NCBI RefSeq assembly: GCF_014279755.1
Contig: NZ_CP047951.1
Location: 124,001 to 188,000, forward strand
Direction of reading: 5' to 3'
DNA length: 64,000 nucleotides
DNA from: Synechococcus sp. PROS-U-1
GTDB lineage: Bacteria; Cyanobacteriota; Cyanobacteriia; PCC-6307; Cyanobiaceae
Positions 43,613-54,285 of this stretch are shown here, piece by piece (positions within the stretch are counted from its first letter, which is position 1; each line of letters opens with the position of its first letter). The notes under the pieces were generated by a model that searched no databases, was not told the DNA's origin, and saw nothing but the letters and a program-made list of their open reading frames with translations. Position numbers and translations under genes: made by a program.

Positions 43613-43798
43613 ATGGGCGCGCTGATTGAGGCCGATCCTGTGGACCTGTCGACAGCCTTGTTGGCTTGGTGGGAGCGCCATGGTCGCGGCGGTATCCCTT
43701 GGAAGCTGTTGCCAGGTGGTGGCCTCCCTGCTCCAGAGCAGCACCTCGACCCCTATGGCATCTGGATCGCCGAGGTGATGCGGTGCTCTGCGGCATAG
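43613..43798 (+). pseudogene. mutY: Displaced 5' fragment of native mutY
   Basis: 61 codons from ATG 43613 to a TAG at 43796. It reads LSTALLAWWERHGR and ends GIWIAEVM before five element-derived residues (RCSAA) and the stop. Compare the intact gene at 53128: SLLAWWEVHGR and CWIAEVMLQQTQ. The fragment therefore carries the true 5' end of the host gene up to codon 56, including half of the catalytic helix, and is cut at the recombination site. It cannot be a functional glycosylase. The original mutY promoter, between it and the RND adaptor, now faces the integrase gene. Confidence 0.9.
43763..43781 (+). repeat. Left attachment site core (attL)
   Basis: A 19-bp stretch, identical to 53308-53326 except for one C/T difference; the 13 bases GCCGAGGTGATGC (43769-43781) are exact. 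To the right of it the two sequences diverge completely, while to the left both encode MutY. It lies 51 bp before the integrase start, which fits an att site of a serine integrase. Confidence 0.8.
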
Positions 43799-43832
43799 GT
43801 GACTAGCTTGTCTGTGTCGGGCAAGCCTCTCC

Positions 43833-45692
43833 ATGGCGCTGGCTTATTCCTATCGCCGCGTTTCCAGTGGTGGCCAGGCACAAGGCGATAAGTCAGGTCT
43901 GCAGCGCCAGGAGGAGGCTCTAAAGGATTGGATGCGCAGGCATCCCGACTTTCGTCTTGCTGAGGAACTTCTCGATCCAGGCGTCAGCGCTTACACCGGC
44001 CGGAACCGCACCCAAGGGGCGCTGGGGCGGTTTCTAGAGGCAGCTCGCTCCGGTTCTATCCCGAAGGGGTCCGTGCTGGTCGTTGAGGATCACAGGCGCT
44101 TCTCCAGGCAAGAGCCTCTGGATGCACTGGAGTCTCTGATCCGGGATGTCTGGGGGCAGGGGCTTGGGTTTGCGGTCTGCAGCTATCAGGGTGGCTCTCC
44201 TTTGTTCAGAGAGACGACTGGGGCCCAAGACCTCGCCATGCTGTCGTTCCTCTTCGCACAGGCTCATGCCGAGAGCGACGAGAAGTCGAAATGGTCTCGT
44301 GGTGGGTGGCGCAAGATTTACGAGGCGCAGGATCGTGGTGAGAGGCCGCGGCATCGCAATCCCTACTGGATTGACCGGGATGAGTCGTTGCCTGACAACC
44401 CATTTCGCTTAAACGGCTACGCCAAGTCGATCGAGGCCATGTTCAAGATGTGCCTGGCGGGGATGGGCCAGACGCAGATTGCCGATGAGCTGAATACGGA
44501 GGGCTATGCAGCCCCTCCTGCATCTAAGGACGGTCGTTGGAACCGTGGTCAAGTGAGTCAACGGTTAAGGGACCCCGCTGTCACCGGCTTGTTGCAGCGC
44601 AAAAACAGCCATGAGATACCGGGTTATTACCCCTCTGTTGTTGATCAGGAGACCTTCACAAGAGCCCAACGGGCGAAGGCAACGCGTGATCGGAAGCGTT
44701 CAACCACCAAGGCGCGGAAAGTTCACTTCCTGTTCAGTGGTTTGGTCCGTTGCGCGGGTTGTGGGTCTCTGTTGACTTACAGGGCGGCCGGTCGATACGC
44801 CAGACCCGGGCATCCCGGTTATGTCACCTGTTCTGACAGTGCTGGTGCGGTCGCAAAGCAGGGTGCGACGCGATGTCGTGAGCAGCTTGGTGCTTGGCGG
44901 AAGTCGCCGACCATCAATCTTCCTTTGGATGAGGCCGAGGCGATGCTGATGGCGACCTTGTCGTTGGCCGACTGGCAGAACCTCTTCCCCATCCAGATGG
45001 GGCCGGAAGTGGAGGATTTGAGCAGGCAGATCCGTACTGCAAACGATCAGCTTCAGGAGCTCAGTGGAAGGATTCAGCGCGGTGAACATCGTCTTGCTGA
45101 AGAGCTGACGAAGGAGCTGCCCAACGAGATTCAGGTCTCTGTTCTGACCGGTGCCATCTCTCAGGCGCGTGAGCAAGTTCTAGAGCTCGAGCGAGAGATT
45201 TCTGAGTTGAACTACAGGCTCAGCGAGTTACGCCCTCAGGACCCTGTGCTGAAGGCGCAGGACACAGTCGAGATCGTGTCCCAGTTTCTTCAGCATGGGC
45301 TTCAAGAGATTCCCAAACGGATGCAGTTCAACTCTTGGCTTCAGCAGCTCGGTATTTCTTGGGTCATGAGTGGAGACTCGATTCAGCTTCACTACAACCG
45401 GCTTGGTCCCAATGGGTTTCCGACGGATTCCTGGGGGACTGCGCTTGGAGAGCTGCATGCCCTGCGAGCGATGGGTTACGAGCGCGGCTTTGCCTTCTTG
45501 TTCGCTGGCAAGACTTGGTTCAATCAACTGGTGACAGGACGAGGAGGGGTGATCAAGGAGCCTGGCAAGTTTCCGCGGCCTGTCTTCCCCCCAGAGGTTG
45601 TGGCTGGTCTCCAAGAGATTGCTCGCTTCCGTGCATCAGAGCTTGGTTACGAAGTTGATCTTGGAGGCGATAGAAGCGAGGGACGACAATGA
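43833..45692 (+). CDS. Large serine recombinase (integrase)
   Basis: 619 residues, ATG start. Resolvase-type catalytic domain with Ser11 in YSYRRVSSGGQ and the conserved EDHRRFSR and LSFLFAQAHAES helix region; then a recombinase domain (GYAKSIEAMFKMCLAGMGQTQIADELN); then a zinc ribbon with VRCAGCGSLL and two later cysteines (YVTCSD, TRCRE); then a coiled coil (about 385-475). This is the architecture of phiC31/Bxb1-like integrases, which recombine attP with attB at a two-base crossover. It lies directly inside attL. After insertion it sits downstream of the former mutY promoter. Confidence 0.95.
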   Translation: MALAYSYRRVSSGGQAQGDKSGLQRQEEALKDWMRRHPDFRLAEELLDPGVSAYTGRNRTQGALGRFLEAARSGSIPKGSVLVVEDHRRFSRQEPLDALESLIRDVWGQGLGFAVCSYQGGSPLFRETTGAQDLAMLSFLFAQAHAESDEKSKWSRGGWRKIYEAQDRGERPRHRNPYWIDRDESLPDNPFRLNGYAKSIEAMFKMCLAGMGQTQIADELNTEGYAAPPASKDGRWNRGQVSQRLRDPAVTGLLQRKNSHEIPGYYPSVVDQETFTRAQRAKATRDRKRSTTKARKVHFLFSGLVRCAGCGSLLTYRAAGRYARPGHPGYVTCSDSAGAVAKQGATRCREQLGAWRKSPTINLPLDEAEAMLMATLSLADWQNLFPIQMGPEVEDLSRQIRTANDQLQELSGRIQRGEHRLAEELTKELPNEIQVSVLTGAISQAREQVLELEREISELNYRLSELRPQDPVLKAQDTVEIVSQFLQHGLQEIPKRMQFNSWLQQLGISWVMSGDSIQLHYNRLGPNGFPTDSWGTALGELHALRAMGYERGFAFLFAGKTWFNQLVTGRGGVIKEPGKFPRPVFPPEVVAGLQEIARFRASELGYEVDLGGDRSEGRQ

Positions 45693-45841
45693 AAACAAGC
45701 GTGAGCTTCAGCAGTTCCCTGAAGGCGCTCTGTTCGAGTTATCAACAGTCTTCTTTGCTTCGAGCTGAGTGTGGCGACTCTATGGACTGGAAAGATGTTG
45801 GACGTTGCCCTGTTTTTGTAGTGGGGTGTGTAGATCTATAG
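45689..45841 (+). CDS. 50-residue ORF coupled to the integrase
   Basis: ATG 45689 overlaps the integrase stop (ATGA), with a purine-rich GAGGGA eight bases upstream. It reads MKTSVSFSSSLKALC and ends at TAG 45839-45841, inside the inverted repeat. I do not recognise it. Its place directly after a serine integrase is where recombination directionality factors are sometimes found, but it lacks any match I can name. It may also be chance coding space. Confidence 0.3.
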   Translation: MKTSVSFSSSLKALCSSYQQSSLLRAECGDSMDWKDVGRCPVFVVGCVDL

Positions 45842-45853
45842 ACCCCACTACAA
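45816..45853. terminator. Perfect 12-bp inverted repeat between convergent genes
   Basis: Arms TTGTAGTGGGGT (45816-45827) and ACCCCACTACAA (45842-45853) enclose a 14-base loop. It lies between the ends of the integrase and the primase-helicase, covering the primase stop codon. There is no T-run after the hairpin in either direction, so it is not a canonical intrinsic terminator; it could still end transcription or block read-through between the two opposing units. Confidence 0.5.
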
Positions 45854-48559
45854 GAATGGGGACAGCTCCAACGCGATCACCTCAAAGCGGTAGGTACGGA
45901 CGCCATCAACCTGGAGCCTCTGCCTCTGGGTGGTGAACCCCGCCACCTTGAGCAGCGCCTTGGCGAACGTTGCGGGGACGTCGTCGTCTGGTCCAGGAAT
46001 GGTGACGCGGCCACCGAGGATGTCTCGCAGTTCCCGTGCCTCGTGCTTATTCAGGCTCTGCACCTCTGCTGCCATCGCGCGGAACTCAGCGCTATCGACA
46101 GTGAATGACCTTGCAGCGATCAGGTCATGCACCCTGACGCGCAGCATCCACACATAGGCATGGCTGGGGTCTACCGCTGCCAGGTCCACCCAAATGCCGT
46201 TCTTGGTCTCCCTACTGGCCTCTGAGTTGGCCTGGTCAATGGTCTTCTGACCAGTCATGACCTCATGGATCAGCTGGGTCCGGCGGCTCAGTTCAGCCTG
46301 CTTTTTCTGTTTATCCCGCTGAGCCTTCGGGATAACAACAGCGTTGTCGCTGATCAGCTCGTCAAACGGCCGGAGCGTGTAGCCCTGATCCTTGAGGCGG
46401 CATGCCAACACGTGCTCGTTATTGACGGCCTCATAGTTGACCCGAGCTTCGAGGGCGACTGAGTAGCGCACGGTTGCCGGGTCAACGCCTTTCAGGTGGT
46501 CTCGGTAGAGCTCCTGCATCTTCGGGTCGATCGCAGTGAACCTGGCACGGCTGACCTCTTCTTGTGATGTCCGCCCAGTTCCGATCTTTGCCATCGGTGC
46601 TGAGACAGGCGACAGCATGATCCGCCGATCTGCGCTTCGTGCCCTGGCGACGGCTTGCATGGCGTCTTGGGGGGCCATCGCGAATTGCTGCACACAAGCA
46701 GCGATGCCAACGGTTGAGGCCTCATACGAGATGCCAGAGACCACAGATGGGCTGTATCCGACCAAGGTGTACTGACCTGCGACCGCATTGGTGTTGGACA
46801 TCAGTTCAGCGACCTCCAAGGATGAGGAGTTGTCGCTGTGGATCAGAAAGCTGCGAGAAAAAGGTGCGCTGAATTTCTTCAGTGACTCTGCTTCGCCCAT
46901 CGAGAGCCAGACCTGCTGGCCTTGATCGATGGTCTGTCCGCACAGCTGCTGGAGCTTGTCGATGTTGTCAGCAGTAGCGGCGCCATAGAACAGGTCGGAC
47001 TGCCGGCGAAACGTGGTGTTGATGACCTGAGGTTGAACACCAGACAGCGCCTGTAGCCATTCCAGCTCGATGTCGCCTATGCCCGCTTCAGCAGCGATGA
47101 TGATGAGCTCTGGGTTTCGTATCAACCGTTCAACTGACCGGATCGCCTCACGCCTGCTGTCTCTCATCCCGTCAGTCCCGTCCAGGAGCAGATGCAGGGT
47201 TGCTTGGGTGAGCTCGTCAAGGAACAGCACAGCTGGCCTGGGGTTCTCCTCCAGGTCGTGGCTCCATCTCCACATGTCCAACTCGCCGCTGTCCTTCTTG
47301 ATCGATTCGCAGCAGCAGAACAGACCGTCCCTGCGCTCTCCACGTTCACGCTCAAACGTGCCTCTGGATGAGCTGAGGTCCCTGACACCGAACTCAGCAG
47401 CGCCTTTGTGGACCAGCGAGGCACGGTGATACAGACCCAGCACGATGACCTTGTGGCCCAGGGCCTGCTCCATCAGGTCAATGGCACCGACTGAGGCCTT
47501 GGTCTTGCCAGTACCCGTGGGGCCCTCCAGGGCGATAATTCGCCCCTGCATCCGCGCCTTGACCAGGTCCTCCGGCTCGAACTCGCGATCGATCGTGGTC
47601 GTCCGCCAGTTGCCCTTCAGTCGGGAGTAATGGCCCTTTTGACCCTCGTTCAGGTTGAAGCTGTCGGTTTGATCGGCTGAGCGGTCAAACGTGCCGGCGA
47701 CCAGTGCCTTGCCCTTCGCCGCGAAGTAGTCGTCCGTCTTGGCCTTGCCTGGATCTGTCCAGGTGAACCAGTTGGCATCAGCTCCAGCTCGATTCAGCTG
47801 CCCTGCTACTCGCTGCGCAGCGCGCTCAGAGTTGCTGCCGTTGTCAAACCTGACAATCATCCGACGGCCACCCTTCGCGAGCTTCTGCAGGGGCACACGG
47901 AGGCGATCTGATCGGGTCTTTTGCCCTGCTGAGTTGATGCCGTTAATGCCGACGGCGAGCTGACCATGGGAGGTCGCAGACAACGCCTTAAGGGCTGATT
48001 CCTCGACCCAGATGGGGACCGCCGGGTTACTGAAGATGAACTGCCATGCCATCTCCGGGGTGTACTCCTCCCGAGTGCAGATGAACCCGTGATGATCCAG
48101 CAGATGCAAGGCGTACTCCCACGTCAACGGCGGGAGGTAGACCTTCACCTGGGTGCCGGTGCAGTCGAAGCGAACTTCACCCTTCTCTCGGGTGCGGATG
48201 CTGGGGTGCTTGCGTTGGCCTGCAAAGTGCAGTCCGGTCAGAAGCACGCCTTTGTTGGTCATCCCGACGCTGTAGATGTTCCAGTTCTCGGGCGGAGTTT
48301 CTCGGAACCTGTAGTCCGTCTTGCGAGTGATGGAGCGCTCTTCCCAGGCGACCTCGTTAGGGCGCAGGTTGAGATTTTCTTTGACCTCCTTGATCTGCTC
48401 CTGTGCCTTGCGATTTAACGCCTCACGCCAGCCTTCATCAGCGCCAAGCGTGATCGCTCCGCGGATGTAATCGTCAAGATTAATCAGATGGTCGACAACT
48501 AACTCGGCTCTGAGTTGCTCAGTTGTGTGGGGCCTGAGGCCCTGAAAGTTCTTGCGCAT
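45848..48559 (-). CDS. DUF3854-type primase-helicase replication protein
   Basis: 903 residues from ATG 48559 (the frame is open to 48622). The N-terminal half contains a Toprim-like DUF3854 pattern: WVEESALKALSATSHGQLAVG (about 182-202), RFDNGSNSE (237) and KTDDYFA (274). The C-terminal half is a P-loop helicase: ALEGPTGTGKTKAS (Walker A 346-353), AVLFLDELT (Walker B, Asp at 448), and a late AVARARSADRR that resembles motif VI. Such fusions replicate plasmids and satellite-like elements of cyanobacteria. It probably starts replication from the palindromic region just upstream of its start. Confidence 0.75.
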   Translation of the reverse strand: MRKNFQGLRPHTTEQLRAELVVDHLINLDDYIRGAITLGADEGWREALNRKAQEQIKEVKENLNLRPNEVAWEERSITRKTDYRFRETPPENWNIYSVGMTNKGVLLTGLHFAGQRKHPSIRTREKGEVRFDCTGTQVKVYLPPLTWEYALHLLDHHGFICTREEYTPEMAWQFIFSNPAVPIWVEESALKALSATSHGQLAVGINGINSAGQKTRSDRLRVPLQKLAKGGRRMIVRFDNGSNSERAAQRVAGQLNRAGADANWFTWTDPGKAKTDDYFAAKGKALVAGTFDRSADQTDSFNLNEGQKGHYSRLKGNWRTTTIDREFEPEDLVKARMQGRIIALEGPTGTGKTKASVGAIDLMEQALGHKVIVLGLYHRASLVHKGAAEFGVRDLSSSRGTFERERGERRDGLFCCCESIKKDSGELDMWRWSHDLEENPRPAVLFLDELTQATLHLLLDGTDGMRDSRREAIRSVERLIRNPELIIIAAEAGIGDIELEWLQALSGVQPQVINTTFRRQSDLFYGAATADNIDKLQQLCGQTIDQGQQVWLSMGEAESLKKFSAPFSRSFLIHSDNSSSLEVAELMSNTNAVAGQYTLVGYSPSVVSGISYEASTVGIAACVQQFAMAPQDAMQAVARARSADRRIMLSPVSAPMAKIGTGRTSQEEVSRARFTAIDPKMQELYRDHLKGVDPATVRYSVALEARVNYEAVNNEHVLACRLKDQGYTLRPFDELISDNAVVIPKAQRDKQKKQAELSRRTQLIHEVMTGQKTIDQANSEASRETKNGIWVDLAAVDPSHAYVWMLRVRVHDLIAARSFTVDSAEFRAMAAEVQSLNKHEARELRDILGGRVTIPGPDDDVPATFAKALLKVAGFTTQRQRLQVDGVRTYRFEVIALELSPFL

Positions 48560-48565
48560 TGGGTT

Positions 48566-48606
48566 TGTGTGTGAGGAAGGTCCGGACCGACCACCTCGCA
48601 CACACA
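48566..48606. repeat. Nested palindromes upstream of the primase-helicase
   Basis: TGTGTGTGAGG (48566-48576) and CCTCGCACACACA (48594-48606) form an imperfect inverted repeat around a perfect 10-bp palindrome, GGTCCGGACC (48579-48588). The block starts 7 bp from the primase-helicase start. It is a good candidate for a replication origin or autoregulatory operator of the element. Confidence 0.5.
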
Positions 48607-48612
48607 GGGCCA

Positions 48613-48819
48613 ATGAACCCAAACGAGGTGGCTATCCGGCTCAGGGAGCTACTCCTGAGGTTGTTTAAGTTCGCCACAGAAGTGGCAAGAGAGCAGTTGT
48701 TGTTCTCGTTGCAAGTGTTCCGAAGCGGTGGCAACTACCTCGAAATGCCAACCCTTCAAGTTACCTGGGCTTGTTCAGGTTCGTTCGGAATGTCGATAAC
48801 AACCGGAAGCCTGGAGTAG
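48613..48819 (+). CDS. Small ORF divergent from the primase-helicase
   Basis: 68 codons from ATG 48613, beginning MNPNEVAIRLRELLLRLF, helical and Leu/Arg-rich at the N-terminus. No clear Shine-Dalgarno and no family recognised. The divergent position next to a replication gene would suit a small regulator, but this is inference and it may not be coding. Confidence 0.25.
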   Translation: MNPNEVAIRLRELLLRLFKFATEVAREQLLFSLQVFRSGGNYLEMPTLQVTWACSGSFGMSITTGSLE

Positions 48820-49098
48820 TTACCTCTCTCTCTTGGCTTCCTTTAGAACCGATCTTGATTCCTTTTACAAGGGCCAACCCAATAGATCCTCAGGATGGAT
48901 GGAGAGAAGGCGTAGAGCCTTCATCGAGAAGCAGTGGGAGGCGACTGGAGGACGTCCACTTCGCTGGGAATGCTGCCCGCTAGATCACTCTGAGCAGCTA
49001 CAAAATCACCACCAATCCGAACGGTTTGGCTCTTCCGGATGAAGCTCGATGACGCTGCTTGAAGCCCGTTGGAAGCCTGTTGGAAAGCGCACAAGTCG
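48820..49098. other. 279-bp stretch with no certain gene
   Basis: An open frame on the plus strand (ATG 48899 to 49042, or from TTG 48833) reads MERRRRAFIEKQWEATGG and later WECCPLDHSEQLQNHH. The two Cys followed by His-His is suggestive of a metal-binding fragment, but no family is recognised and no ribosome site is seen. Otherwise I find no structure here. Confidence 0.2.
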
Positions 49099-49584
49099 AT
49101 GAACTCCTTCCCACAACTCCCTGGTGAGCCCGCAGATGCCTTCGAGCAGCTCCTGCTGCATCGAGACTTTGGCCCCAGTCGTCAGTTCAGTCAGACAGCG
49201 GATGTTGTGGGCTGCTCTGAATCAACCCTGCGCCGACGAGCAGAACAGTGGCGCTGGAACGAGCGTCTGGCTGACTACGACTCCGGGATGCTTCAGCAGG
49301 CATCAGAGGCACGAACGAAGGAGGACCTTGAGCGCTGCAAATACCAGCTTGAGACGTTCCGACAAGAGCAGCTCGCACGAGCTCGCACCGTTGGAGATCG
49401 AGCTGAAGAGCTACTGGCGATGGTCGAGCGCAGCGTCAGGCATCACCTGGAAGCTGGCACCGTTCTCCAAGGGCGTGAGCTTCCTTCCGTAATGGCCGCG
49501 GCCTGCAAGGCCTTGGAGGGTGCCATGAACATCGAGGCGACGGCTCTTGGGGTCGCAGGGCTGCTTGAAGATTTTTCGAACTAA
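49099..49584 (+). CDS. Terminase-small-subunit-like protein
   Basis: 161 residues from ATG 49099. The N-terminal half has a helix-turn-helix of the TerS kind: FSQTADVVGCSESTLRRRAEQW followed by RWNERLADYDSGML, with the Trp-Asn-x-Arg pattern common after the HTH in phage TerS. The rest is a long amphipathic helix region (about 75-150) suited to oligomerisation. TerS selects the packaging site on phage DNA; in phage satellites a private TerS redirects packaging to the satellite genome. The call rests on pattern and not on a profile search. The alternative is another DNA-binding protein. Confidence 0.5.
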   Translation: MNSFPQLPGEPADAFEQLLLHRDFGPSRQFSQTADVVGCSESTLRRRAEQWRWNERLADYDSGMLQQASEARTKEDLERCKYQLETFRQEQLARARTVGDRAEELLAMVERSVRHHLEAGTVLQGRELPSVMAAACKALEGAMNIEATALGVAGLLEDFSN

Positions 49585-49826
49585 CGAAGACTTTTGACGG
49601 AAAGATGGAGTGAACACAGCATGAGAGCTTCTTGAAGCTGGTCCCCGTCAGCGTCATCTGGCTCCAGAAAACCTCCGGCGTTCAGCTCTAAGGTCTTCCA
49701 TGCGATGGATTGATGAGGCTGGCCTCGATGCGGCCTTTTGTGCAGCATGTAGAAACCGTCCAAGCGCGCACCCGCTTCAACGACTTTGGAGGAAAAAGCG
49801 TTTATCATTGCCACGTTTTTGATCAC
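49581..49826 (-). CDS. Hypothetical 81-residue ORF
   Basis: ATG 49826, convergent with the TerS-like gene (4-bp overlap). It includes ARLDGFYMLHKRPHRG and ELNAGGFLEPDDADGD, which look like real protein but match no family I know. No ribosome site decides the start. It may be a small element gene or a remnant. Confidence 0.3.
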   Translation of the reverse strand: MIKNVAMINAFSSKVVEAGARLDGFYMLHKRPHRGQPHQSIAWKTLELNAGGFLEPDDADGDQLQEALMLCSLHLSVKSLR

Positions 49827-49892
49827 GAGGATCTCGGCATGATGGGAAATATTTTGATTGAAGCCTGAACACTGCGATACTCGTACGACTGA

Positions 49893-50291
49893 TCAAGCCC
49901 CGCCACAAGGCTCCCAGCTCTTCAACATCGTTTTGATCTCAGTCTCCAGCACCTTCAATTCATCCAGGCGCTCATGAATCTCGCTTAATTTTTCGCGCAT
50001 CGTGGTCTTGAGATCACTGCAAGTACAGATTCCAGATCGCTGTGCCTGAATTACTTTTTTCACCAAATCAAGAGGCAAGTCCATGGCCCGCAGACGAAGG
50101 ATTAGACTAAGATCGTCAAAAACAGACTCATCAAACAATCGATATCTGGAATCGGTACGTGATACTGGCAGCAATAAACCTTCATCACAATAAAAACGAA
50201 TCGTTTTCACCGAAATGTTGCTTCTTGCAGAGACAACTCCAATCTTGAGTAGATCGCCAGGCGCTTTAGGCACGAAGGGTTGACTCTCCAC
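49893..50291 (-). CDS. MerR-family metal-responsive regulator
   Basis: 132 residues from GTG 50291; GTG 50273 would give 126 residues and leave the operator free. The winged helix is typical (KIGVVSARSNISVKTIRFYCDEGLL, SRYRLFDES), followed by a long dimer helix. Cysteines at GICTCSDLK and in the terminal EPCGGA are probable metal ligands. It should twist the long-spacer promoter of the divergent DUF305 operon in response to a metal, likely copper or a related thiophilic metal given the neighbours. Confidence 0.85.
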   Translation of the reverse strand: MESQPFVPKAPGDLLKIGVVSARSNISVKTIRFYCDEGLLLPVSRTDSRYRLFDESVFDDLSLILRLRAMDLPLDLVKKVIQAQRSGICTCSDLKTTMREKLSEIHERLDELKVLETEIKTMLKSWEPCGGA

Positions 50292-50310
50292 TTACTGGAG
50301 ACTCCACAAT
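50280..50310 (+). promoter_or_regulatory. MerR-type promoter with 19-bp spacer
   Basis: -35 TTGACT (50280-50285) and -10 CACAAT (50305-50310) are 19 bp apart, the overlong spacing typical of MerR-controlled promoters. The spacer contains the dyad CTCCA (50286-50290) and TGGAG (50296-50300). It drives the DUF305 gene starting at 50332. It overlaps the first codons of the regulator, so the regulator represses itself or starts at 50273. Confidence 0.75.
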
Positions 50311-50331
50311 AGCGACGTGATTGTTCTTTCC

Positions 50332-51033
50332 ATGCGTCGTATCGCTTTTGCTCTGGCCGCCATCTCGGCACTGCCCCCTCAAGTCGCATTGGCCCAAATG
50401 GACCATGGGATGCATCACCCAGCACCCGAGGAGGTCAAGCAAGAGTCGCCCACCCAATCCGGTTCCCATGAGCACCACGCCCATGGCATGGGACCAGCAG
50501 GCAGCACCTACGACCTGCGCTTTATCGATGGCATGGTCGAGCATCACACCGGGGCGTTGCGGATGAGTGAGTACGTCTTCAATATCGGCGCCCCTGGGGT
50601 GGGAGCCCTTGCGAACAGCATCTGGGACGAACAGGCCCGTGAGATCAAGGCGATGCGCCAATGGCGCAAGGCCTGGTACCCCGATGCGCCCGTGTATCCC
50701 GTGGCATTGCGCCCAAACGGCGACCCCAACTCCATGGCCGATCTAGTGCGGATGAGTCCTGCGGTGATTGCCGCCATGCGCATGTCGGCAACAAAACCAA
50801 CGCGAGAGAACAGAGTGCAGTGGTTTTTAGAGGGCATGATTGAGCACCACGGCGGCGCCCTTCAGATGGCCCATGAGGCCCGCAAAAACTCCACCAACCC
50901 AACCATCCTTCGTCTTGCGCGCGAGATCATCGTTGCCCAGCGCAAAGAAATCATCGAACTCCGCAAGATGCTGAAAAGCAAAGGCATGAATAAGCCTGAC
51001 TACTACAAATTTGATGGCCTTTTCGCGCTGTGA
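50332..51033 (+). CDS. DUF305 family protein, His/Met-rich, exported
   Basis: 233 residues from ATG 50332. A signal peptide (RRIAFALAAISALPPQVALAQ) is followed by a His/Met-rich segment (MDHGMHHPAPEE, HEHHAHGMG) suited to copper binding. Two DUF305 repeats follow: FIDGMVEHHTGALRMSEYV and FLEGMIEHHGGALQMAHEA, each with the M-x-x-H-H-x-G-A core of this ferritin-like family. The function is not established; the family is often near copper genes. It is the first gene of a three-gene operon with overlapping starts. Confidence 0.85.
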   Translation: MRRIAFALAAISALPPQVALAQMDHGMHHPAPEEVKQESPTQSGSHEHHAHGMGPAGSTYDLRFIDGMVEHHTGALRMSEYVFNIGAPGVGALANSIWDEQAREIKAMRQWRKAWYPDAPVYPVALRPNGDPNSMADLVRMSPAVIAAMRMSATKPTRENRVQWFLEGMIEHHGGALQMAHEARKNSTNPTILRLAREIIVAQRKEIIELRKMLKSKGMNKPDYYKFDGLFAL

Positions 51034-51281
51034 AAGCAATCACCTTTAATGCCTTCACCCCAAGGATGATGGGCTGTATCTCCATCTCATTCGCCCTCAT
51101 CGCTGCTTTCGTTGTCCATCCGATGGCCAGCCATGCTCACGGCAAAGGCATCTACCCATCCAAAGCTGACGCGCAACAACGTGCCAGTGTGATTGGTTGC
51201 AATACGGTGCATCAGAACAACGGAAAGTGGATGCCCTGCGCAGATGAGCGTGAACTCCACCGCCAACTTCGCAAGCTATGA
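51030..51281 (+). CDS. Small exported DUF3721-like protein
   Basis: 83 residues from GTG 51030, overlapping the DUF305 stop. N-terminal hydrophobic signal (CISISFALIAAFVVHPMASHA). The mature part has GIYPSKADAQQRA, then GCNTVHQNNGKWMPC, matching the pattern of the cyanobacterial DUF3721 group with two Cys that may bind metal. The function is unknown. It is coupled to both neighbours by 4-bp overlaps. Confidence 0.65.
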   Translation: MKAITFNAFTPRMMGCISISFALIAAFVVHPMASHAHGKGIYPSKADAQQRASVIGCNTVHQNNGKWMPCADERELHRQLRKL

Positions 51282-51547
51282 ACCAACGTCCGCTTTCACG
51301 GCGAGCACGCAAGATTCACCGTTGGCTGGTTCCAATCGCCGCTGTTCCGTTGCTGATCACCGCAGGCACGGGATCTCTCTACAGCTTGCTCTTGGAGCAA
51401 GACATTGATGCCTTCTGGCTGCTCAAGATCCACACCGGGAATTTCGGTGTTCTGAATCTTCAGCCCGTCTACCCAATGCTCTTGGGTGGGCTCACCGTCA
51501 TCGTCACAGTTTCGGGTGCAGCGATGCTGTTAAAACCATCGCGATGA
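51278..51547 (+). CDS. Small PepSY-associated membrane protein
   Basis: 89 residues from ATG 51278 (ATGA overlap). Two membrane helices: WLVPIAAVPLLITAGTGSLY and YPMLLGGLTVIVTVSGAAML. The N-terminus RKIHRWLVPI and the inter-helix WLLKIHTGNFG resemble the truncated PepSY-TM (peptidase-like) proteins found in cyanobacteria near metal or iron genes. It may anchor or couple to the exported neighbours. The molecular role is unknown. Confidence 0.6.
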   Translation: MNQRPLSRRARKIHRWLVPIAAVPLLITAGTGSLYSLLLEQDIDAFWLLKIHTGNFGVLNLQPVYPMLLGGLTVIVTVSGAAMLLKPSR

Positions 51548-51560
51548 CCCCCGTTCCCCG

Positions 51561-51583
51561 AAGCGGTCTCCCTGAAACCGCTT
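51561..51583. terminator. Hairpin between convergent metal-cassette genes
   Basis: Perfect 7-bp arms AAGCGGT (51561-51567) and ACCGCTT (51577-51583) with a 9-base loop, 14 bp after the PepSY gene and touching the DUF411 stop. No T-run follows. It probably acts as a bidirectional transcription stop. Confidence 0.45.
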
Positions 51584-52115
51584 AGTAACGCGCGAAGACG
51601 GAGGTTGTTCCGTCATGGGCAATTGCAAGCACCTCGAAACGTTCAGCCTCGACACCAGCCACCTCCATCCCAGGAGAACCCATTGGCATCCCTGGAACAG
51701 CAAGACCACGGATATTGGGCCGTTCCTTCAACAGCCTCTGGATCGCAGAAGCAGGCACATGCTCTTCGATCACATATCCCTCCACAACCGCGGTATGATA
51801 CGAAGCCTGTTGAGGGCTGACACCACGCGCCTTTTTCACAACATCCATGTCCTCAGTGACATGGTCATCAATGCGAAATCCCGCTGAAGCGATGTGGGAT
51901 CCCCATGACGTACAGCAACCGCAACTCGCCGATCGATACACCGTTATCTGTGGCCCGGTCGCACCACTAGTGACGGGCATCTCACCATCCCCTTTCGCAT
52001 CACCATGCGCCTCAACCGGTTGACTCGCTGAAAGCAGAGAGACGACCACGAAGGCTCCGACCAAGCTCTGTCGCAAGGCAGTTGAACACAGGTGCGCAAA
52101 ACGCGAAGCCTTCAT
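51582..52115 (-). CDS. DUF411 metal-binding protein
   Basis: 177 residues from ATG 52115, preceded by AAAGGA. A signal region (LRQSLVGAFVVVSLLSASQPVEAHG) is followed by ITVYRSASCGCCTSW, whose C-x-C-C motif is the hallmark of DUF411, and later VVEGYVIEEHVPASAI and GLAVPGMPMGSPGM, also family-typical. DUF411 proteins are linked to copper and other metal resistance as periplasmic metal binders. It converges with the DUF305 operon and forms the second arm of the metal cassette. Confidence 0.85.
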   Translation of the reverse strand: MKASRFAHLCSTALRQSLVGAFVVVSLLSASQPVEAHGDAKGDGEMPVTSGATGPQITVYRSASCGCCTSWGSHIASAGFRIDDHVTEDMDVVKKARGVSPQQASYHTAVVEGYVIEEHVPASAIQRLLKERPNIRGLAVPGMPMGSPGMEVAGVEAERFEVLAIAHDGTTSVFARY

Positions 52116-52134
52116 GGATTCCTTTAGGAGACAA

Positions 52135-52275
52135 ATGAGATCAAGCTCCGCATTATCGCGAGTTGAGCTTTGTCCAGACCAGTTCCAGGCTCTTGCTGGC
52201 ATCGATGCGCAGACAGCACGAATCGTGCTGGAGAACTCGGTAGCTCTGAAGGTGGATAACTCGGGGCTTTATTGA
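52135..52275 (+). CDS. Short ORF with strong ribosome site
   Basis: 46 codons from ATG 52135; TAGGAG lies five bases upstream. It reads MRSSSALSRVELCPDQF and ends with NSGLY before TGA 52273. Its start is 20 bp from, and divergent to, the DUF411 start. I do not recognise the protein. A hairpin (CAGCACG/CGTGCTG, 52214-52230) lies within it. It could be a leader peptide or a small element protein. Confidence 0.35.
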   Translation: MRSSSALSRVELCPDQFQALAGIDAQTARIVLENSVALKVDNSGLY

Positions 52276-52354
52276 GTTCAGCGTCGGCCTTCATGGCATG
52301 CGCTGACTACCCATCGATAAAGTTCGCTGTTACAGGTTCAACCGACGTAGACTT

Positions 52355-53128
52355 GTGGAACAACCGACTGGATTCCCGTTGTCTTTGCCTGATCGTCCTC
52401 TGAGTCCGAGTCGTTGGCTGGCCTACTACCGGGTCAGTACAGATCGCCAGGGAAACTCCGGCCTGGGCCTCGAAGCGCAGCGGGCCAAGGTTGAAGTAAT
52501 GGCTTCCGAGCGGGGGGCTGTGATTGCGGCTGAATTCGTGGAGGTTGAGAGCGGTCGGAAGAACGATCGTCCTCAGTTGGCCGCGGCTCTGGCTCAGGCT
52601 CGCGCGGAGAAGGCTGTCATTGCTGTTGCCAAGATCGATCGTCTGGCTCGTGATGCTGGCTTCGTCTTGAAGCTCGCCAACGAGGCAGAAAAGAACGGGA
52701 TGGGTGGCTTCATCTTCTGCGACTTGCCAGACATTGATGCCACCACCAGTGCTGGTCGGATGGTTCTCACGATGATGGCCAGCGTTGCTGAGTTCGAGGC
52801 ACGTCGGATCAGCGAGCGAACTAAAGAAGCGTTGGCCGCGGCCAAGGCCCGAGGCGTGTGTCTTGGGGGGTACCGGGAAGGTGCTGCTCAGAAGGCGTCG
52901 GAGCGCAAGCAGAAGGCCATTGCTGAGGCGGAGGGACTGCGCGGGGTTCTTGAGCCAATGGTTCGTGCAGGCTTGAGCTACAGGGCCATGGCTGATGCGC
53001 TTGCAGGGGTTGGCAAGCTCAGCAGCACGGGAAAGCCACTGGCTCCGGCGCAGATCGGTCGGATCCTGCAGCGCTTGGGTTTGTCGGGAAAGCTGCTGGG
53101 CAGTGACCAGGCTTGGGTCGCTGCCTGA
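52355..53128 (+). CDS. Small serine recombinase (resolvase/invertase type)
   Basis: 257 residues from GTG 52355. Catalytic Ser28 in LAYYRVSTDRQGNSG, then VAKIDRLARDAGFVL and MASVAEFEARRISERTKEAL, which are standard resolvase motifs. The C-terminal 70 residues hold a helix-turn-helix (YRAMADALAGVG, PAQIGRILQRLG). The stop overlaps the mutY start (TGATG), so translation of the hybrid mutY is coupled to it. It may resolve replication dimers of the element or take part in its excision; which of the two recombinases does the insertion is not proven by sequence. Confidence 0.9.
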   Translation: MEQPTGFPLSLPDRPLSPSRWLAYYRVSTDRQGNSGLGLEAQRAKVEVMASERGAVIAAEFVEVESGRKNDRPQLAAALAQARAEKAVIAVAKIDRLARDAGFVLKLANEAEKNGMGGFIFCDLPDIDATTSAGRMVLTMMASVAEFEARRISERTKEALAAAKARGVCLGGYREGAAQKASERKQKAIAEAEGLRGVLEPMVRAGLSYRAMADALAGVGKLSSTGKPLAPAQIGRILQRLGLSGKLLGSDQAWVAA

Positions 53129-54285
53129 TGGGTCAACGACGCAGCGCTGAGCATCGCGACTTCAGTCCTCTAGCGGCTGAGCTCAGTCACTCCCTGCTGG
53201 CCTGGTGGGAAGTCCACGGCCGGAAGGATCCTGCGCTGAAGCCGTGGATGTTCACCAAGGACGGAAGGTGGCCCGAGCCCCATGAACATCTCAATGTCCT
53301 GGAGTGCTGGATTGCCGAGGTGATGCTGCAGCAGACCCAGTTGGCGGTGGTGCTTCCTTTCTGGACTCGTTGGATGACGGCATTTCCCACGTTGGAGGTG
53401 CTGGCGGCGGCTTCCTTGGATGACGTGCGGCTGCAATGGCAGGGCCTCGGCTATTACTCGCGGGTCCGCCGGTTGCATGAGGCGGCGCAGATTCTGGTGG
53501 GCGGGCCGTGGCCCCGCAGCTTGGAGGAGTGGATGGCGTTGCCGGGCATCGGCCGCACCACTGCTGGCAGCATCCTCTCCAGTGCCTTCAATGCGCCGTT
53601 GCCGATCCTGGATGGCAACGTCAAACGGGTGCTGGCGCGATTGACGGCTCATCCGCGCCCGCCGGCCCGCGATGAGGGGTTGTTTTGGAGCTGGAGCGAG
53701 GCCTTGCTTGATCCGGATCGGCCACGGGATACAAACCAAGCCTTGATGGATCTGGGGGCCACGCTTTGCACCCCCCGCCAGCCGTCATGCAACCTCTGCC
53801 CCTGGCTCTGGCGGTGTGCTGCCTACGCTTCCGGCGATCCCTGCCGCTGGCCCGTGACCGATGCCCCCAAGCCCCTGCCCTTCAAGGTGATCGGTGTGGG
53901 TGTCGTCCTCAACACGGCAGGGGAGGTGTTGATTGATCAGCGGCTGGAGGAAGGTTTGCTGGGGGGCATGTGGGAGTTCCCCGGTGGCAAACAAGAAGAG
54001 GGCGAAACGATCGAAACTTGCATCGCCCGCGAGCTGAAGGAGGAACTCGGCATTGCGGTGACGGTCGGCGATGAATTGATCACGGTTGATCACGCCTACA
54101 GCCACAAGAAGCTGCGCTTCGTGGTGCACCTCTGCGACTGGGTGTCGGGGGAGCCGCAGCCTCTGGCCAGTCAGCAGGTGCGTTGGGTGCGACCGGATGA
54201 TCTGAACAATTTCGCCTTTCCAGCTGCCAACGCCAAGATCATTGCGGCGTTGCTTGGCAGGTTGAGCAGCTCTGCCCACTCTTAG
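53128..54285 (+). CDS. mutY: A/G-specific adenine DNA glycosylase with Nudix domain, element-host hybrid
   Basis: 385 residues from ATG 53128. It removes A mispaired with 8-oxoG. Catalytic Glu64 in WIAEVMLQQTQ; helix-hairpin-helix LPGIGRTTAGSI with Asp162 in LDGNVKRVLARL; [4Fe-4S] cysteines 214, 221, 224 and 230 (spacing C-x6-C-x2-C-x5-C). The C-terminal domain holds a complete Nudix box (GGKQEEGE to REL-EELGI, about 286-308), so an 8-oxo-dGTPase activity is possible. Codons 1-66 lie left of or on the right att core and come from the element; the rest is the resident gene. Expression now depends on the upstream recombinase gene. Confidence 0.95.
   Translation: MGQRRSAEHRDFSPLAAELSHSLLAWWEVHGRKDPALKPWMFTKDGRWPEPHEHLNVLECWIAEVMLQQTQLAVVLPFWTRWMTAFPTLEVLAAASLDDVRLQWQGLGYYSRVRRLHEAAQILVGGPWPRSLEEWMALPGIGRTTAGSILSSAFNAPLPILDGNVKRVLARLTAHPRPPARDEGLFWSWSEALLDPDRPRDTNQALMDLGATLCTPRQPSCNLCPWLWRCAAYASGDPCRWPVTDAPKPLPFKVIGVGVVLNTAGEVLIDQRLEEGLLGGMWEFPGGKQEEGETIETCIARELKEELGIAVTVGDELITVDHAYSHKKLRFVVHLCDWVSGEPQPLASQQVRWVRPDDLNNFAFPAANAKIIAALLGRLSSSAHS
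53308..53326 (+). repeat. Right attachment site core (attR)
   Basis: Matches 43763-43781 with one mismatch (T for C at 53313); the exact 13-bp core is 53314-53326. It encodes the WIAEVM helix of MutY and sits at codons 61-66 of the hybrid gene. Element DNA lies to the left and host mutY to the right. Confidence 0.8.

Follow-up and report, generated by a model that had tools for sequence, protein, structure and literature searches.

The integrase of SXT is of the tyrosine type. SXT inserts within the 5' part of prfC and gives the gene a new N-terminus in frame, together with a promoter where this has been tested (PMC8409611). Islands in dusA, such as IMEVchUSA3, also provide a new N-terminus that keeps the gene in frame, again with a promoter where tested; these islands use tyrosine integrases and characteristically replace the 5' end of dusA, a position at which integrases are found in over 200 bacteria (PMC4482086). 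The principle of 5'-end replacement is therefore already known from SXT/prfC and the dusA islands. Here we describe an element in mutY of Synechococcus sp. PROS-U-1, a genome of the marine Synechococcus type that forms a single contig of 2.58 Mb. The window is the whole stretch of DNA analysed, 64,000 nucleotides, and all positions refer to it unless another locus is named. We read the locus as an integrative element, a probable phage satellite with metal-resistance cargo, whose large serine recombinase joins attP to an attB in mutY while MutY is kept, and we put the probability of this reading at about 0.93.

Results

The element (Table 1) sits in the 5' part of mutY, a conserved gene, and supplies it with a new in-frame N-terminus unlike the native one. 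The initial annotation had described an abruptly ending 61-codon mutY start at 43613, an intact mutY at 53128 with its own 5' region and a near-identical repeat at the junctions. The start fragment is present as described, and its product ends in ...GIWIAEVMRCSAA*. The intact mutY is likewise there; the codons supplied by the element are 1 to about 64, up to the Glu64 codon, rather than the 65 originally given. The direct repeat (43762-43781 and 53307-53326) is real and has the 13 exact positions reported, but it comprises 20 nt, 19 of them identical, instead of 19 bp, and it is partly plain mutY homology. Joining the flanks (43781 to 53327) produces a single MutY frame of 375 codons with no stop, just as had been proposed.

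Table 1. Positions of the mutY element, its genes and its attachment sites in the window.
Feature	Position	Strand	Remarks
Native mutY 5' fragment, 61 codons	43613..43798	+	departs from mutY at crossover; ends MRCSAA*
attL crossover interval GAGG	43772..43775	+	within 20-nt repeat 43762-43781
Integrated element	43774..53318	+	9,545 bp if crossover at GA
Large serine recombinase, 619 aa, probable integrase	43833..45692	+	starts about 60 bp from attL
Imperfect inverted repeat between convergent genes	45797..45872	.	38-nt arms, 76% complementary
CyRepA1-like plasmid replication protein with DUF3854	45848..48622	-	Pfam DUF3854 5.5e-15
terS-like gene (terminase small subunit)	49069..49584	+	PHROG 6.7e-12
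MerR-family metal-responsive regulator, cargo	49893..50291	-	
DUF305 / CopM-like metallochaperone, cargo	50317..51033	+	Pfam 1.2e-29; NCBIfam CopM just under cut-off
DUF3721 protein, cargo	51030..51281	+	
Small, probably membrane, protein, cargo	51278..51547	+	without family match
DUF411 protein, cargo	51582..52202	-	7.5e-25
Small serine recombinase (resolvase/invertase type)	52355..53128	+	TGA overlaps ATG of the new mutY at 53128
Element-borne mutY 5' coding part, also left half of attP	53128..53318	+	100% DNA identity G000/G009/G268
Composite intact mutY (element 5' + host 3'), 385 codons	53128..54285	+	
attR crossover interval GAGG	53317..53320	+	at catalytic Glu64 codon

An empty site is found in G005, a genome of the same genus, where mutY is contiguous, carries no element and adjoins the same efflux gene as in the window; an element-free relative of this kind had been set as the test of the initial proposal. 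No sequence found was closer to the 43613 fragment than the 5' end of this gene, at 88.9% DNA identity (84.4% for the remaining gene), and that native fragment has its nearest relatives in uninterrupted mutY genes from the same genus. The same element is present in G009, of the same genus, and in G268, of another, each time in the host's own mutY. Compared with the window, these two copies show 100% identity in almost all 200-bp windows of two stretches, 43800 to about 50200 and 52200 to the right att site; outside the element identity drops to host level, and the jump from host level to 100% falls at the att sites. Identical boundaries were found again in G009, G268, G323 (Synechococcus sp. 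AG-679-C18) and G264 (BO 8801); G022 (AG-670-F04) is a further carrier. The recurring boundaries and the identity switch are far beyond chance, and contamination is unlikely because the contigs are long (647 and 348 kb) and carry host-specific flanks. Furthermore, the window genome (G000) and G268 share 100% identity in the element-borne part of mutY, compared to 68.0% in the rest of the gene, the largest excess of N- over C-terminal identity among 496 mutY pairs; for the 171 pairs of native genes the N-minus-C excess averages -7.4 points and reaches at most +5.0. The mutY element is real, mobile and recurrent, and these genomes show where exactly its boundaries lie, that it inserted and moved between species and genera, that it replaces the 5' end of mutY, and that it decays. 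The proposal of a serine-integrase element in mutY that replaces the 5' end of its target is borne out by the empty G005 site, the copies in other genomes and the large recombinase that they share.

Comparison of several insertions narrowed the crossover to the four bases GAGG: the mutY insertions of G009 and G268 rule out a crossover upstream of GAG, and a second-site insertion in G318 rules out one downstream of GAGG. Attachment sites attP and attB thus share a very short core of four bases and differ otherwise. In MutY, GAG encodes Glu64; this residue corresponds in the alignment to Glu43 of Geobacillus MutY, the catalytic glutamate, and the crossover falls in the most conserved part of mutY. 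Because such an att site is unable to vary, a broad host range would be expected. The inverted symmetry of attP is best at the same offset in four of four elements (12-15 of 30 matches); we regard it as suggestive, since the native half scores nearly as well at other offsets, and the arms read in this way would make GA the probable central dinucleotide. Among elements, the right arm of attP is conserved over about 22 nt. G318 has a related element (integrase 96%) at another site, and the flanks of this element, rejoined at GAGG, form a long frame of a G3E/CobW-type GTPase. Here attL and attR lie near 2406 and 13393 of L081 on the reverse strand, and the mutY 5' part of the element dangles unused. 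In the predicted circle, the mutY frame of the element would stop after MRCSAA*, and the predicted excision joint restores the native mutY frame. An exact search of viral contigs with the attP joint gave no match, and neither the large recombinase nor terS was found when searched for in viral contigs.

We also compared the residues encoded right before the core. Uninterrupted mutY genes, including those of ten genomes of other families, have the motif D/S-x-Y-x-(I/V)-W at this position, and the element-borne 5' parts have VL(E/D)CW in its place. The swap probably occurred because the same DNA is an attP half-site: the integrase would need the VL(E/D)C-coding sequence for the left half of attP, and MutY would tolerate the exchange. 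Since mutY would then hold an attP-type half after integration, it would no longer contain attB. Tentatively, we suggest that this DNA might serve both as coding sequence and as half-site, and that the altered allele, being no longer an attB, might remain after integration and decay as a scar that resists re-entry of the element. The mutY gene of G318 has an imported 5' end with small-recombinase remains directly upstream, and the related element sits at a different, poorly matching site; this single case fits a block to re-entry.

A somewhat doubtful alternative is that VLEC was not selected as an attP half-site and hitch-hiked neutrally from the mutY of a donor lineage. The CW signature, seen in 15 of 400 genomes of the family and in four genera, does occur in mutY genes without a recognisable element (G023, G125, G302 and G020), which are possible donors, and the arm symmetry of attP is weak. 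However, the 5' part of G264 retains VLEC despite being just 64% identical to that of the window over its whole length, and Tyr is kept in every uninterrupted mutY that was read outside the CW group. Moreover, in G191, G314, G066, G318, G177 and G013 mutY is directly preceded by a tail of the small recombinase, with no intact element there; because of these remains we regard G191, G314, G318, G013 and G177 as scars, which also speaks against neutral hitch-hiking. The CW signatures of G020 and G091 may not be derived from an element. In G261 (L089, 7244-9997) a recombinase tail, a mutY 5' part and the start of a large recombinase lie upstream of another complete mutY; they probably stem from a second insertion, since decayed, into a gene that already held one. 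The open frame of mutY in G111 (L099, near 7770) has just 194 codons, and the gene is possibly frameshifted or a pseudogene.

The 619-aa recombinase matches Pfam Resolvase and Recombinase above cut-off and a PHROG integrase profile at 4e-54. Its zinc ribbon scores 20.1 bits, under the cut-off of 25.3; counting this below-cut-off match, the protein has the Resolvase, Recombinase and zinc-ribbon domains of large serine recombinase (LSR) elements. Where the described dusA islands have a tyrosine integrase, the mutY element has a serine recombinase. Relatives of the large recombinase adjoin mutY fragments in G009, G268 and G323 (91-100% identity), G264 (68%) and G164 (about 40%), and the mutY element of G264 has this same integrase type without a small serine recombinase and with quite different cargo. 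The large recombinase is common to the mutY elements examined, including that of G264, which supports it as the integrase and very probably identifies the enzyme. In G164 (L087, 46-1398) the mutY fragment beside the recombinase likewise ends in GCCGAGG, and different integrases may converge on the mutY site.

That the small serine recombinase beside mutY, rather than the large one, chooses mutY as the integrase is very improbable. It directly adjoins attR, is coupled to mutY and occurs in most mutY elements, but it is missing from the G264 element; its 91-94% relatives stand at other sites beside other integrases (G007, G015) or, in G020, without a large recombinase; and in picocyanobacterial elements a small serine recombinase has been reported near an unrelated tyrosine integrase (PMC10187409). 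We rejected it as integrase on its absence from G264 and its occurrence with other integrases and sites. Since it is found with other integrases or at other sites, the small recombinase would be accessory, the position that a small serine recombinase also has in another picocyanobacterial element (PMC10187409). The loci of its relatives, G015 (L144, 5093-7722), G020 (L143, 8694-9542) and G007 (L095, 6816-10462), contain the small serine recombinase, partly with terS and rep. By inspection, the sites are apparently yraN in G015 and G020 and beside a yjbQ-like gene in G007, and in G015 a short remnant of a mutY start lies 3' of the small recombinase.

An origin with no recombinase event, in which a second 5' end came to lie upstream through duplication of part of mutY or through homologous exchange with a mutY of foreign origin, is hardly credible: the junction repeat is largely mutY homology, as such an origin would have it, but the same boundaries occur in several genomes with unrelated flanks, identity is 100% right up to the att core, a recombinase gene lies at the element edge and a relative has the empty site, and we rejected this origin mainly on the recurrent boundaries and the identity switch at the att sites.

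In the integration that we propose, the large serine recombinase would recombine attP with attB inside mutY, with the crossover in GAGG at the catalytic glutamate codon. The native gene would be split to leave an N-terminal stub at attL, and at attR the element-borne mutY start, coupled to the small recombinase gene, would be fused to the remaining host codons. As the start from the element is fused to host codons, an intact MutY would be kept, with its activity predicted. The element would excise as a circle, and VLEC in place of the native Tyr motif would mark an attP-type half-site that stops re-entry. Given the TGA/ATG overlap, translation of mutY is probably coupled to that of the small recombinase. 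Upstream of this gene pair, the + strand showed no sigma-70-like site; the element may nevertheless bring a promoter for mutY. In the integrated element the integrase would follow the old mutY promoter, and in the circle it would follow the small recombinase and the mutY stub; integration might bring a change of promoter.

The replication protein matches NCBIfam CyRepA1 at 6e-33, under the curated cut-off, and is 22-27% identical to cyanobacterial plasmid Rep proteins; the CyRepA1 family has been described (PMC10899382). The terS product is 25-28% identical to terS of cyanophages PSS2 and S-CBS2, siphovirus relatives that suggest a helper phage. Profiles from Pfam, PHROG and NCBIfam detected no virion structural genes in the element, and its gene content of terS and a replication gene without such genes is that of a satellite. 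Because it combines a CyRepA1-like rep, a cyanophage-like terS and a small serine recombinase, the element looks like a phage satellite, which suggests that it would replicate after excision and be packaged by a siphovirus helper. The inverted repeat between the convergent genes is possibly a two-way terminator.

The MerR-family regulator reached no equivalog cut-off that would name its metal. The 1.8-kb metal-cargo segment (50250-52050) differs by 5-18% among the window, G009 and G268, whereas the rest of the element is almost without differences; the cargo seems to have been exchanged or to be evolving separately from the backbone of the element. In G264 (L083, 6430-11361) a 1,643-aa restriction-enzyme-like protein replaces the metal cargo and, from motifs inspected by eye, looks like a fused helicase-methyltransferase restriction enzyme.

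Discussion

The gene mutY, a housekeeping gene of DNA repair that keeps G:C to T:A mutations low, has repeatedly been re-started by a mobile element, and in old insertions the foreign start stays fixed in the gene. The three close copies across two genera form a natural test set. If our reading of the scars is true, they would render the host resistant to re-entry of the element, which is directly testable. In a literature search that covered subscription journals only in small part, we found no paper that describes such an element in mutY.

Like tycheposons and other picocyanobacterial elements, the mutY element is a cargo-bearing mobile island of marine picocyanobacteria, and it shares with one of them a small serine recombinase, which is common there (PMC10187409). 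Those elements use tRNA genes and tyrosine recombinases (PMC10872708, PMC10187409), whereas the site here is mutY and the recombinases are of the serine type; we therefore rejected membership of the tycheposons. Like PICIs and PLE, the mutY element is small and has a replication gene and a terS-like gene without virion structural genes, and PLE of Vibrio cholerae also uses a large serine recombinase (PMC6002521). Unlike them, it has a rep of the cyanobacterial plasmid type and cargo for metals, its satellite status being judged from its genes. With the LSR elements treated in the accessible part of their catalogue, the mutY element has in common the recombinase gene at the edge, a conserved coding target and, possibly, the convergence of different recombinases on one site; replacement of the target's 5' end does not appear in that part (PMC10083194).

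The closest likeness in the fate of the target gene is to SXT/prfC and the dusA islands: the mutY element, too, enters the 5' part of a conserved gene and replaces its N-terminus in frame. The 5'-end replacement that the initial annotation had thought unusual is indeed seen in mutY, and it is less exceptional in view of these precedents. SXT and the dusA islands have tyrosine integrases and belong to proteobacteria, whereas the mutY element has a large serine recombinase, targets mutY and resides in cyanobacteria; in addition, its crossover strikes a codon for a catalytic residue, and a recombinase gene precedes the new start and is coupled to it. New features are the class of recombinase, the gene targeted, the group of hosts, a crossover within a catalytic codon, the exchange of the motif, and the scars. 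Front-end replacement, known with tyrosine integrases in proteobacteria, hereby extends to a large serine recombinase in marine picocyanobacteria.
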